Below, piece by piece: positions 5,820 through 15,497 of a stretch of DNA of 64,000 bases. The stretch covers positions 62,001 through 126,000 of the forward strand of contig NZ_JAJOHV010000022.1 of the NCBI RefSeq assembly GCF_021129175.1, in the 5' to 3' direction. Origin of the DNA: Chromobacterium piscinae. GTDB taxonomy: Bacteria > Pseudomonadota > Gammaproteobacteria > Burkholderiales > Chromobacteriaceae. The position numbers and the translations under genes were made by a program. The notes beneath the pieces were generated by a model, which saw only the letters and a program-made list of their open reading frames with translations, was not told the origin of the DNA and did no database searches. How positions within the stretch are numbered: the first letter of the stretch is position 1; each line of letters begins with the position of its first letter.

Positions 5820-6962
5820 ATGCTGCAAGAAATGTCTGATGTGACGTTGGTGCGTCGGGACGATATTCCGTCTATGCGCACGGTGGTTGTGGATGGTGTC
5901 GAGCACTGGCTGGGCCATGTCAAGGATTTCACCAAGAATGCGCCGCTGACCCAGTTTCTCCCTAAGGACAATCGCATATCCATGGCTTGGGTAAGGCTAG
6001 AAGCCGGCGAACGCCTGGATGCGCATATTCATCCGGTTGAGTCGATGATCGTGATGTGCGAGGGCGGAGCCCGCACTTTGGGCGACGTGCGGGAGACGAT
6101 GAACGCGGGAGACATCCTGCTGGTTCCGCCTGGAAAACTGCATGGTTTCATCGGCATGCCGCCTAGCGGATTCTGGGGGCTGTCGATCCAGTTCGATTCG
6201 CGCGGCCTGTACGAGGACATCGCTGATCCCTGGGCGACTTTCACCGACGAGCTGGAACAGCAGAATGGCGCCGGCAGCGTCGTCGAGCAATTGCTGCTCA
6301 AGAATGAAGAATACATGGAGCGTTTCGACAAGCATCGTCTGTTCGCGATGGTCCGAAACGGCTTGTTGAGCGACGCCGCGGCGAAGCGGCGCTTCCTGGA
6401 TTGCTTCCAGGTATGGTCCAACTATTTCCAGAAAATGGTGCTGATGCGCGCGGTTACCGCGCGGCAAAAAGGCTTCGACGATCTAGCGTGGCAGCATTTG
6501 TACGAAGAGCTTGGGCACAACCAAAGCCTGGCTAAGAGTCGCGACGACTTGCAGACAGTGTTCGATCCTCTGCTGGAAGCTACCTGTTCATGGTTCGCTT
6601 CCAAGATGGAACATATCGGCGAGGCGGAAAAGGTCGTGCTGAGCCATGTGGTCGTCGAGGCCTCCGCCACCTATTTCTACAAGCATGTGCAACCGATTCT
6701 GGCGCAGACCGATGTCAAGGATCATTTCGACGTTCATTCCGTCGTTGACGAAGATCATGTCGAGATGGGGTATGCCTTCCTCCGGACGCTGTCCATAGAA
6801 GACGGACATTCGCTGTTCGAGATCCAGCATCAGGGTTGGGCGATGCTGATGGCGGTTATGGCGCGCATCGCAGACCTGACCGTGCACCATACCGGCGGCG
6901 GCCCCGAGGCGAGCGCAGAAAAGGACCGTAGCGATGCAGTCGCCGATGCAGTGGCCGTCTGA
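5820..6962 (+). CDS. Cupin-heme-oxygenase-like diiron (HDO-type) fusion protein
   Basis: A 380-residue two-domain protein. Residues 40-125 form a cupin: H69-x-H71 and E74 in motif 1, and G97-x5-P103-x-G105-x2-H108 in motif 2 fits the consensus exactly, so a metal site is likely. Residues 150-355 are all-helical and resemble heme-oxygenase-like diiron enzymes (TenA/PqqC, CADD, UndA, SznF group). Candidate metal ligands are E229/E230 and H233 (YEELGH), E280, and H306-x3-D310-x2-H313, the last with the same spacing as the CADD triad. No substrate can be named. It is first in a nine-gene cluster with a strong SD (AAGGAGAG), and its end overlaps the Rieske alpha gene by 29 bases. The tail after residue 357 is low-complexity. 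Confidence 0.75.
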   Translation: MLQEMSDVTLVRRDDIPSMRTVVVDGVEHWLGHVKDFTKNAPLTQFLPKDNRISMAWVRLEAGERLDAHIHPVESMIVMCEGGARTLGDVRETMNAGDILLVPPGKLHGFIGMPPSGFWGLSIQFDSRGLYEDIADPWATFTDELEQQNGAGSVVEQLLLKNEEYMERFDKHRLFAMVRNGLLSDAAAKRRFLDCFQVWSNYFQKMVLMRAVTARQKGFDDLAWQHLYEELGHNQSLAKSRDDLQTVFDPLLEATCSWFASKMEHIGEAEKVVLSHVVVEASATYFYKHVQPILAQTDVKDHFDVHSVVDEDHVEMGYAFLRTLSIEDGHSLFEIQHQGWAMLMAVMARIADLTVHHTGGGPEASAEKDRSDAVADAVAV

Positions 6963-8151
6963 GGGCGCTCGCCGCGTGCCTGCGGCGGTTTATACCGACC
7001 AAGAGCTGTATGAGCGCGAGCAGGACCGCATTTTCCGCGGCCGCACCTGGAACTACGTCGGGCTGGCTGCGGAAGTGCCCGCGCCCGGCGATTTCATCCA
7101 AAGCTATGTCGGCAGCACGCCGGTGGTGCTGGTGCGGGACAGGGAGGGCGAGCTGCGCGTGTTCGTCAACCGCTGTACGCACCGCAATGCGCAGGTCTGT
7201 CATGAACCGCGCGGCCATGCCAAGGTATTTACCTGTCCTTACCATCAATGGTCGTTTGGTCTGGACGGTAGGCTGATTGGAATTCCGTTCCGGCGCGGCA
7301 TTAACGGCAAGGGCGGCATGTCTTCCTGTTTCAAGGCGGAAGAGCACAATCTGGAGCAATTGCGGGTTGCCGAGCGCCATGGAGTGGTATTCGCCAGCTT
7401 CTCCCATGATGTGGAGCCATTGGAAGCGTATCTGGGGCCGACCATCCTGGCTTATTTCGATCGCGTCTGCGATGGCAGGCCGCTGCGCGTGATTGGTTCG
7501 ATGCGGCATCGGGTGGAGGCGAACTGGAAACTGCAGGTCGAGAATCTGAAGGATCCGTTCCATGCGGCCTTGTTGCATTCCTTCTTCGTTACGTTCGGCA
7601 TCTGGCGTTCCGATCAGGAAACCGAAGTCAAGGTGGACGAACTGGGTCGCAGCAGTGTGTTGGTGTCGACCGCCAGTTTCAAGCGGGCGACGCAGGAGGC
7701 TGTGGAACAGCGCCCCGCCGCCAGTGGCGATTTTCGGCTGGAGGATGCGAGCATCATCGCACATCAGCGCGAATATGAGCATGGCACCGGGGCGATACTC
7801 ACCATCTGGCCCAATTTGATCATTCTGCAGCAGCTGAATTGCCTGGCGATGCGCCATGTGCGTCCGGACGGACCGGATGCCTGTGTGAAGAGTTGGACTT
7901 TCTTCGGATACGAATCGGATACGCCTGAACTGCTGGAGAAGCGCCTGCTGCAGGCCAATATGCTTGGGCCGTCGGGACTGGTGACGATAGACGATAACGA
8001 AGTCCTGGCGATTTCGCAGGCCGGTGCCCGCAGCGCGCCAGACTCGGCGGCGGTGCTGGAGGCTGGCGAAGGAACGGGCAGCGCGGATCACATGCTGACC
8101 GAATCCGCGATCCGAGCTTTCTACCAGTACTATCAAAAAATCATGGAATGA
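6934..8151 (+). CDS. Rieske non-heme iron oxygenase, alpha (catalytic) subunit
   Basis: The catalytic subunit of an aromatic-ring hydroxylating oxygenase (405 aa). The Rieske [2Fe-2S] ligands are C81-x-H83 and C101-x2-H104. The mononuclear iron site is D207-x2-H210-x4-H215 (DPFHAALLH), with the Asp being the residue that relays electrons between subunits in the family. Electrons would come from the ferredoxin encoded at 12272. The alpha length and the separate short beta subunit place it near the salicylate/anthranilate/terephthalate-type oxygenases rather than biphenyl types; this is inferred from size and motif only. Start 6934 has AAAAGGA upstream, inside the preceding gene, which suggests translational coupling. 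Confidence 0.9.
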   Translation: MQSPMQWPSEGARRVPAAVYTDQELYEREQDRIFRGRTWNYVGLAAEVPAPGDFIQSYVGSTPVVLVRDREGELRVFVNRCTHRNAQVCHEPRGHAKVFTCPYHQWSFGLDGRLIGIPFRRGINGKGGMSSCFKAEEHNLEQLRVAERHGVVFASFSHDVEPLEAYLGPTILAYFDRVCDGRPLRVIGSMRHRVEANWKLQVENLKDPFHAALLHSFFVTFGIWRSDQETEVKVDELGRSSVLVSTASFKRATQEAVEQRPAASGDFRLEDASIIAHQREYEHGTGAILTIWPNLIILQQLNCLAMRHVRPDGPDACVKSWTFFGYESDTPELLEKRLLQANMLGPSGLVTIDDNEVLAISQAGARSAPDSAAVLEAGEGTGSADHMLTESAIRAFYQYYQKIME

Positions 8152-8158
8152 CAAACGG

Positions 8159-14263: not shown

Positions 14264-14270
14264 GGAAACA

Positions 14271-15497
14271 ATGTTGAGCGATTCGGATAGGACGGTCCGC
14301 AGGGAAATGAAGTGCAAACTTGCCATCATAGGCGCGGGGCCGTCCGGCCTGTTGTTGGGCCAATTGCTGCTGCGGGCCGGCATCGATAACGTCATTATCG
14401 AGAAAAAGAGCGCGGACTATGTTCAGGGGCGCATCCGAGCTGGCGTGTTGGAGCAAGGCACGGTGGATTTGTTGCGCGAGGCGGGTGCCGGGCGCCGAAT
14501 CGATGATGAGGGAATCGTCCATCGCGGATTGGAATTGGTGTTCGGCAGATGCCGCGACCGCATTGATCTCCAGGGGCTGACCGGCGACGGAGCGGTGACG
14601 ATTTACGGCCAGACCGAGATGACGCGTGACCTGATGGAGGCGCGCGAGGCGAGCGGCGGCCTCAGTTTCTACGAGGCCGAGGACGTGCGCTTGCACGATG
14701 TGGATGGCGAGCGTCCGTATGTGACGTTCATGCACGATTCGCAGCCATACCGGCTGTCATGCGATTACATTGCCGGCTGCGACGGCTATCATGGCATCTC
14801 TCGCCATTGCATTCCACAGGACGTCTTGGTCGAGTACGAGCGGGTGTATCCATTCAGCTGGCTGGGATTGCTGTCGGATACGCCGCCGGTTCACCACGAG
14901 CTGGTGTATGTCAATCACGAGCGCGGTTTCGCCTTGTGCAGCCAGCGCTCCGCGTCGCGCAGCCGCTATTATCTGCAAGTGCCGCCGACGGACAGGCTGG
15001 AAGAATGGCCGGATTCAAGATTCTGGGCGGAGTTGAAACGCCGGTTGCCGGACAAACTGTCGCAGCGTCTGGTCACCGGGCCCGCGCTGGAAAAAAGCAT
15101 TACCCCGCTGCGCAGCTACGTGGCGGAGCCCATGCAATACGGCAAGCTGTTCCTGGTTGGCGATGCCGCCCACATCGTTCCGCCTACCGGCGCCAAAGGG
15201 TTGAATCTCGCCGCCAGCGACGTCGGCACGCTATACCGCATCCTGAAAAAGGCTTATCAGGAAAACCGCTTCGATGTGGTCGGCCGCTATTCCGAGATTG
15301 CTTTGCGCCGGGTGTGGAAGGCGACTCGTTTTTCGTGGTTCATGACTTCGTTGATGCATACTTTTCCTTCTCGCGAAGAGATGGCTTTCGAGCGCAGGAT
15401 GCAGCAGGCCGAATATGATTACTACGTCAATTCGAGCGCTGGCCAGAAAACGATTGCCGAGAATTATGTCGGCTTGCCACATGACCTAGTGGACTAG
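14271..15497 (+). CDS. pobA: 4-hydroxybenzoate 3-monooxygenase
   Basis: An FAD- and NADPH-dependent flavoprotein that makes protocatechuate from 4-hydroxybenzoate. FAD motifs: [14 protein letters not shown] near the N-terminus, the DG loop [15 protein letters not shown] and [16 protein letters not shown]. Counting from the internal Met (14307), numbering matches the Pseudomonas enzyme exactly. The substrate residues Tyr201, Ser212, Arg214, Tyr222, Pro293, Asn300 and Tyr385 (ENYVGLP) are all present, so substrate specificity is likely preserved. The start 14271 has GAGGAAA upstream. ATG 14307 would give the usual 394-396 residue length and is a serious alternative. No ring-cleavage (pca) genes are in the window. 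Confidence 0.95.

Follow-up and report, generated by a model that had tools for sequence, protein, structure and literature searches.

Introduction

Haem-oxygenase-like diiron oxygenases (HDOs) are the source of a run of unprecedented reactions. In a 2026 review (PMC13108848) about a dozen of them are counted as functionally validated, and SznF is the one given with a C-terminal cupin. SznF carries an HDO diiron domain and a three-histidine cupin in one chain (PMC13108848, PMC10849742). Here we describe a block of nine genes in Chromobacterium piscinae whose first gene encodes the same two kinds of domain in reversed order, with the cupin N-terminal. The block lies in a 64,000-nucleotide stretch of the contig NZ_JAJOHV010000022.1 (positions 62,001 to 126,000; below, the window, in whose positions coordinates are given unless a locus is named). 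It forms an insertion that separates a GNAT gene from yaaA. According to our best reading, about evenly balanced between right and wrong, it is a horizontally mobile, self-contained oxidative biosynthesis operon for a small, probably aromatic, specialised metabolite, and this is more likely than a feed into a known degradation route.

The enzyme classes of the block are themselves known. The cupin-first HDO is its newest part, and with a Rieske partner it is a new combination. A recurring family of reversed domain order, with full metal sites in all 28 aligned sequences and a Rieske oxygenase beside it in a compact movable operon, makes the chemistry directly testable, and the fusion gene can serve as a marker for finding further such clusters. 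A first-pass annotation of the window knew of no described pathway with this gene set. Our literature search, made without most subscription journals and on titles and the starts of abstracts, found no description either, which is no proof that none exists.

A cupin and a diiron oxygenase in one chain

The fusion gene g1 (5820..6962, + strand) encodes 380 residues. The Cupin_2 match is over the cut-off, and together with an AF2 model it places cupin strands at about residues 18-124, followed by HDO helices from about 154. The model, compared with VIA-align, has a haem-oxygenase-like helical fold in its C-terminal half. The HDO half is below the Pfam cut-off, and a profile built from it found no match in the PDB up to E = 10.

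Relatives were collected by scanning the contigs of a genome collection with two peptide patterns, a procedure by which some relatives can escape. From 58 matching stretches, 30 loci were confirmed to contain a g1 relative. The 32 sequences from the window, the 30 loci and Embleya were reduced to a 29-row alignment by dropping L019, L020 and L039, which are similar to kept rows; the ligand counts rest on the 28 rows left without Embleya. The cupin histidines H69, H71 and H108 are invariant in 28/28, as are E230, H233, E280, H306, D310 and H313 of the HDO half, which correspond to the three-histidine/three-carboxylate set. These metal ligands are assigned by motif and are hence predicted. At position 229, where an extra, seventh Glu ligand of the SznF type (3H/4C) might lie, all 28 rows have Glu or Asp.

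In Myxococcota and Bdellovibrio-type metagenome-assembled genomes (L027, L033, L034, L035, L041, L042), two tandem cupins precede the HDO part of the fusion. In L043 a separate cupin-type gene stands ahead of the fusion gene.

The likeness of g1 to SznF, as far as the sources describe the latter, is the HDO diiron domain with a three-histidine cupin in a single chain; the difference is the order. A place of g1 among the SznF-type N-nitrosating enzymes was rejected, since the order of HDO domain and then C-terminal cupin is not found. SznF is also absent from the PDB matches of g1 and of a cupin-half profile, as it is from the empty result of the HDO profile. Compared with AetD, CADD, HrmI, UndA and HamA, g1 is so distant in sequence that it neither reaches the Pfam cut-off nor finds a profile match in the PDB. 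The cupin profile gives no match to the roughly 100 additional residues at the N-terminus of HrmI, and in the review passages SznF alone is named with a cupin (PMC13108848).

The gene block is layered

All nine genes lie on one strand (+) between 5820 and 15497, with identities taken from profile and structure matches, which bear out the first-pass list of nine co-directional genes with these enzyme types. The fusion is followed by a Rieske oxygenase alpha subunit, NagG/AndAc/TphA2-like but in a clade of its own by profile matches and a tree (g2, 6934..8151), and a Rieske beta subunit with Ring_hydroxyl_B and AndAd-like matches (g3, 8159..8653). Then come a class III (CaiB-type) CoA-transferase (g4, 8714..9898, with a start at 8714 or at the TTG at 8696; CoA_transf_3), a CynX/NimT-like transporter of the major facilitator superfamily (MFS; g5, 9960..11195, where from the sequence GTG 9960 is preferred over ATG 9705), and a TauD/TfdA-type Fe(II)/2-oxoglutarate dioxygenase (g6, 11205..12194; TauD, 231 bits). 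The block closes with a plant-type 2Fe-2S ferredoxin (g7, 12272..12886, with ATG 12272 preferred over 12197; Fer2), an AAHS/PcaK-like MFS transporter assigned by profile matches (g8, 12911..14263) and PobA, a 4-hydroxybenzoate 3-monooxygenase (g9, 14271..15497; TIGR02360). Profile scans identified none of the nine proteins as a regulator, a reductase, a CoA ligase or a pca enzyme, as had been noted before, and there is no integrase among the nine genes.

The 30 loci were searched with the nine block proteins at E 1e-8. The fusion and both Rieske subunits occur together in nine of them, namely in C. sphagni, three Photorhabdus, Vibrio neptunius and four Pseudoalteromonas, and the fusion stands without the Rieske pair in the other 21. 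The CoA-transferase, the TauD-type dioxygenase and g8 are found in addition in five (C. sphagni, three Photorhabdus, V. neptunius), g5 in three, and matches of g7 and g9, besides the window, in C. sphagni only (1/30). The identical gene order in five other loci led us to reject a chance assembly of unrelated genes.

As read from gene content, the core is the fusion with Rieske alpha and beta, the second layer is the CaiB CoA-transferase, the TauD-type dioxygenase and the transporters, and the third, local layer is the ferredoxin and PobA, confined to two Chromobacterium loci. Because of these layer counts, PobA looks like a late addition and not like a sink for the other enzymes of the block.

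When g1 was searched against 300 sampled genomes of the order, it matched besides itself only through its cupin part (seven matches, E 4e-5 to 4e-4, not counted as relatives), and the HDO half searched against 398 genomes of the phylum found only itself. A scan of a viral contig collection gave 136 pattern matches and no relative of g1.

In Photorhabdus tasmaniensis (L015:15594-16346) the g8 frame ends at 250 residues, compared with about 440-450 elsewhere, and no frame of at least 90 residues is listed in the roughly 4.8 kb behind it. In L032 a weak g8 match on the opposite strand (27% over 113 residues) was left uncounted.

The fusion elsewhere and the proposed role of the block

Profile scans of neighbouring genes covered the genes of L010, L014, L016, L018, L022, L023 and L028 and one gene of L029. 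In a cyanobacterium (L023) the fusion stands with genes for an aminotransferase, a Trp-halogenase-family protein, a VioC-like FAD monooxygenase and an O-methyltransferase. In Pseudomonas L028 its neighbours encode ATP-grasp, ABC, PhyH and class IV aminotransferase proteins. This set recurs, whole or in part, in other Pseudomonas loci and Rhodococcus, and partly in Nocardia (L029) and the cyanobacterium, and our literature search found no description of the Pseudomonas/Rhodococcus gene set. In Embleya (L010) the fusion comes after dehydrogenase genes, and polyketide-type domains are encoded some kilobases upstream. These other neighbourhoods look biosynthetic, and it is mainly because of them that we prefer biosynthesis for the block.

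In the proposed pathway, whose enzymatic steps are left unordered, the Rieske pair would hydroxylate a carboxylated aromatic ring, as suggested by its nearest characterised relatives, whose substrates are salicylate, anthranilate and terephthalate. The fusion would carry out two successive oxidations, one at the three-histidine cupin site and one at the three-histidine/three-carboxylate diiron site, and for its HDO half the likeliest target would be a carbon of an amine or amino acid, as for many characterised HDOs. The CoA-transferase may activate a carboxylate and the TauD-type enzyme may oxidise an acid-bearing intermediate. The ferredoxin would hand electrons to the Rieske or the HDO centre, and the MFS proteins could import a precursor or export the product. 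In this strain PobA would either make protocatechuate from endogenous 4-hydroxybenzoate (from chorismate through chorismate lyase) or trim a 4-hydroxybenzoate unit.

A more specific version is tentative and on balance improbable. The product might be a previously undescribed N-oxidised aromatic metabolite (nitro, N-nitroso, diazeniumdiolate or nitrile-like), made by a new bifunctional cupin-HDO class and a dedicated Rieske hydroxylase. The fusion would then perform, by analogy, the two kinds of step of SznF in the reverse domain order.

Several observations weigh against biosynthesis. There is no carrier-protein gene, peptide or polyketide assembly gene, dedicated exporter or regulator among the nine genes, and those Rieske relatives whose role is known (NagG, AndAc) serve catabolism. 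AAHS transporters usually serve catabolic uptake. An intradiol-family gene is present in the three P. rubra genomes searched (84-90 bits), and three Photorhabdus genomes have weak partial intradiol matches (28-33 bits, cut-off 27.3). For most of the 21 loci with the fusion alone, the neighbours lie outside the profile scans. To these is added a match of the cupin half to a gentisate dioxygenase, which lowers both the biosynthetic reading and its N-oxidised version and raises the rival considered next.

The other oxygenases, the CoA-transferase and a possible ring-opening role

The Rieske alpha subunit g2 is 46% identical to an annotated NagG salicylate 5-hydroxylase, and a salicylate 5-hydroxylase is also the nearest solved Rieske enzyme. 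Against the AndAc equivalog NF041684 it reaches 408 bits of a cut-off of 750, and an identity as anthranilate dioxygenase was rejected on this score. The tree has 15 rows, comprising the window with seven of the nine loci and seven others; it was rebuilt after an overlong naphthalene dioxygenase outgroup row had been removed from an unresolved first tree, and AndAc forms a long branch in it. The eight cluster rows split from the seven other NagG/AndAc-type proteins with a support of 100/100. The pair g2/g3 shares the Rieske subgroup and the alpha/beta composition with NagG, AndAc and TphA2 (terephthalate dioxygenase), but differs from these systems in its separate tree group and in having no Rieske-type ferredoxin or reductase alongside. 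The ferredoxin of the block is of the plant type; its C-terminal extension of about 95 residues (12599-12886) resembles DUF1491 and PilZ at sub-threshold level only.

In the TauD-type dioxygenase g6, the metal triad H110/D112/H264 and R275 and R279 are invariant in 6/6 sequences. Like E. coli TauD it has the metal triad, the 2-oxoglutarate arginine and the anion-binding His/Arg positions, all kept in 6/6, whereas an alanine and a threonine align with Tyr73 and Asn95, the residues that bind the taurine amine. A use of taurine was rejected because of these active-site changes and a score of 277 bits against PRK09553, the TauD equivalog with a cut-off of 313.

The CoA-transferase g4 belongs to its family (PF02515, 369 bits, cut-off 23.3) and reaches no substrate-level equivalog; its best match of solved structure is YfdE. 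Both transporters stay under their specific models: g5 scores 110 of 406 against TIGR00896 (CynX/NimT), and g8 480 of 770 against NF053517 (PcaK) and 403.7, slightly under the cut-off of 418.55, against TIGR00895 (AAHS).

A serious rival, if on balance an improbable one, is a self-contained ring opening. The Rieske pair, here with PobA, would make a di- or trihydroxybenzoate, the cupin of g1 would cleave the ring like a gentisate dioxygenase, the diiron half and the TauD-type enzyme would oxidise the chain and the CaiB enzyme would put CoA on the dicarboxylic product. A profile of the cupin half, built from 22 of the 28 sequences with the six two-cupin proteins omitted, matches the gentisate 1,2-dioxygenase 3bu7 at E 1.2e-5, third of 58, and other gentisate dioxygenases at E 0.001-0.004. 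The three conserved cupin histidines and the salicylate 5-hydroxylase as nearest solved Rieske enzyme fit this chemistry, gentisate genes lie close to a Rieske relative in L013, and matches of g4 include small-dicarboxylate enzymes. However, cupins whose function is different or unknown score equally well or better against the profile. With g1 as a single sequence the PDB search gives gentisate dioxygenase at E 0.33 only. The best 50 Foldseek rows for the cupin are TM1459, RemF, hydroxynitrile lyase and other cupins; neither gentisate dioxygenase nor SznF is among the best 50 rows of the fold tables, which excludes neither. Further, the L028-type clusters have the fusion without a Rieske gene.

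PobA and the fate of 4-hydroxybenzoate

The first-pass identification of PobA is genuine. Against TIGR02360 g9 scores 640.6 bits (cut-off 538.7), and the substrate-binding residues Tyr201, Ser212, Arg214, Tyr222 and Tyr385 are all conserved in an alignment to 1pbb. The equivalog score and these kept residues make it sound to infer that g9 converts 4-hydroxybenzoate into protocatechuate.

The same annotation had also proposed that the other enzymes produce 4-hydroxybenzoate for PobA, by aryl-ether or side-chain oxidation (TauD) or by ring hydroxylation (Rieske). We regard such a catabolic funnel, starting from an aromatic ether, a side-chain or an N-substituted compound, as unlikely. It would agree with the adjacent PobA and AAHS genes at the operon end, with TauD relatives that include phenoxypropionate dioxygenases and with the catabolic annotated relatives of the Rieske pair. 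The main reason for doubt is the layering. The suggested co-occurrence of fusion, Rieske, CaiB and TauD genes held in five of the 30 loci, but pobA accompanies them in only one, so that four of these five have the fusion, Rieske, CaiB, TauD and AAHS genes without it. Among the eight carrier genomes searched, PobA is over the family cut-off in C. sphagni only.

The metabolism of the host points in the same direction. Chorismate lyase is present in the genome of the window, so 4-hydroxybenzoate is probably endogenous. No intradiol dioxygenase (PF00775) was found in this genome, in a search that left out LigA and other ring-cleaving families, and none in the genomes of C. sphagni and V. neptunius. 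The sole LigB-family protein of the window's genome is nearest to DOPA dioxygenase, at 179 bits under a cut-off of 233. A protocatechuate ring-cleaving dioxygenase for a pob/pca branch was thus not found there among the PF00775 and LigB families, and there is no HpcH_HpaI aldolase in that genome. The block resembles pob/pca catabolic operons in having PobA beside a PcaK-like transporter, and differs from them in that no pobR, ring-cleavage or pca gene, nor any other regulator, is among the nine genes.

Insertion site and mobility

In related genomes the genes flanking the block are adjacent. A yaaA match was found in 58 other genomes, and the loci of the best 11 were read; in 10 of these the GNAT gene (4714-5463 in the window) adjoins yaaA, and no GNAT match was found in the eleventh (L057). 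The two genes are about 10.3 kb apart in the window, separated by an insertion with approximate boundaries at 5331..15598. The yaaA tail is present on both sides: an apparent second copy forms the left junction (5248..5322), with an imperfect 27-bp repeat shared with 15598-15624. The insertion has a G+C content of 0.598, compared with 0.644 in the rest of the window, and a tRNA-Met gene (4586..4662, +) lies upstream of it.

Only two of 61 genomes of the family carry g1, that of the window and G689, which we take to be C. sphagni as its locus L060 reads like L014. In C. sphagni the yaaA site is empty (L058), and the block is found elsewhere (L014:9530-20119) between two identical tRNA-Met genes, which are also identical to the tRNA-Met of the window. 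The two blocks are similar in DNA (77.6% over 9772 columns) from 10 bp before g1 to 13 bp after pobA. For five of six genes compared, the Photorhabdus luminescens copies are closer to V. neptunius than to P. thracensis, by small margins, which fits a transfer of the block.

The sporadic, mobile distribution, the two MFS genes and the presence of Photorhabdus, which is invertebrate-associated, among the carriers would also suit a detoxification or modification of an aromatic from a host or competitor, by partial oxidation without growth benefit. We consider this quite unlikely, as a set of several steps that includes CoA transfer would be elaborate for such a role and the fusion is also found near biosynthesis-type genes.

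Further observations

In the window, a 407-residue open frame without a Pfam match at 20409-21632 may be no gene. The L028-type operon (L028:8807-17238) consists of ATP-grasp, the fusion, an ABC-type protein of about 1120 residues, a protein of about 340 residues without a Pfam match, PhyH and a class IV aminotransferase. It is also seen in L030, L031, L032, L036, L037, L038, L039 and L040, with PhyH in Pseudomonas only. The protein of about 340 residues has a C-terminal LGRG...K..G pattern and is perhaps acyltransferase-like, which is a guess.

A DUF3419 (PF11899) protein and a PaaK-like AMP-binding ligase extend the cluster of V. neptunius (L016:17621-20082) and may complete the pathway there. 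In Pseudoalteromonas rubra (L018:12847-14751) there are only the fusion and the Rieske alpha and beta genes, followed by a flavin-containing monooxygenase-like protein. This set is a minimal version, useful for finding the core reaction.

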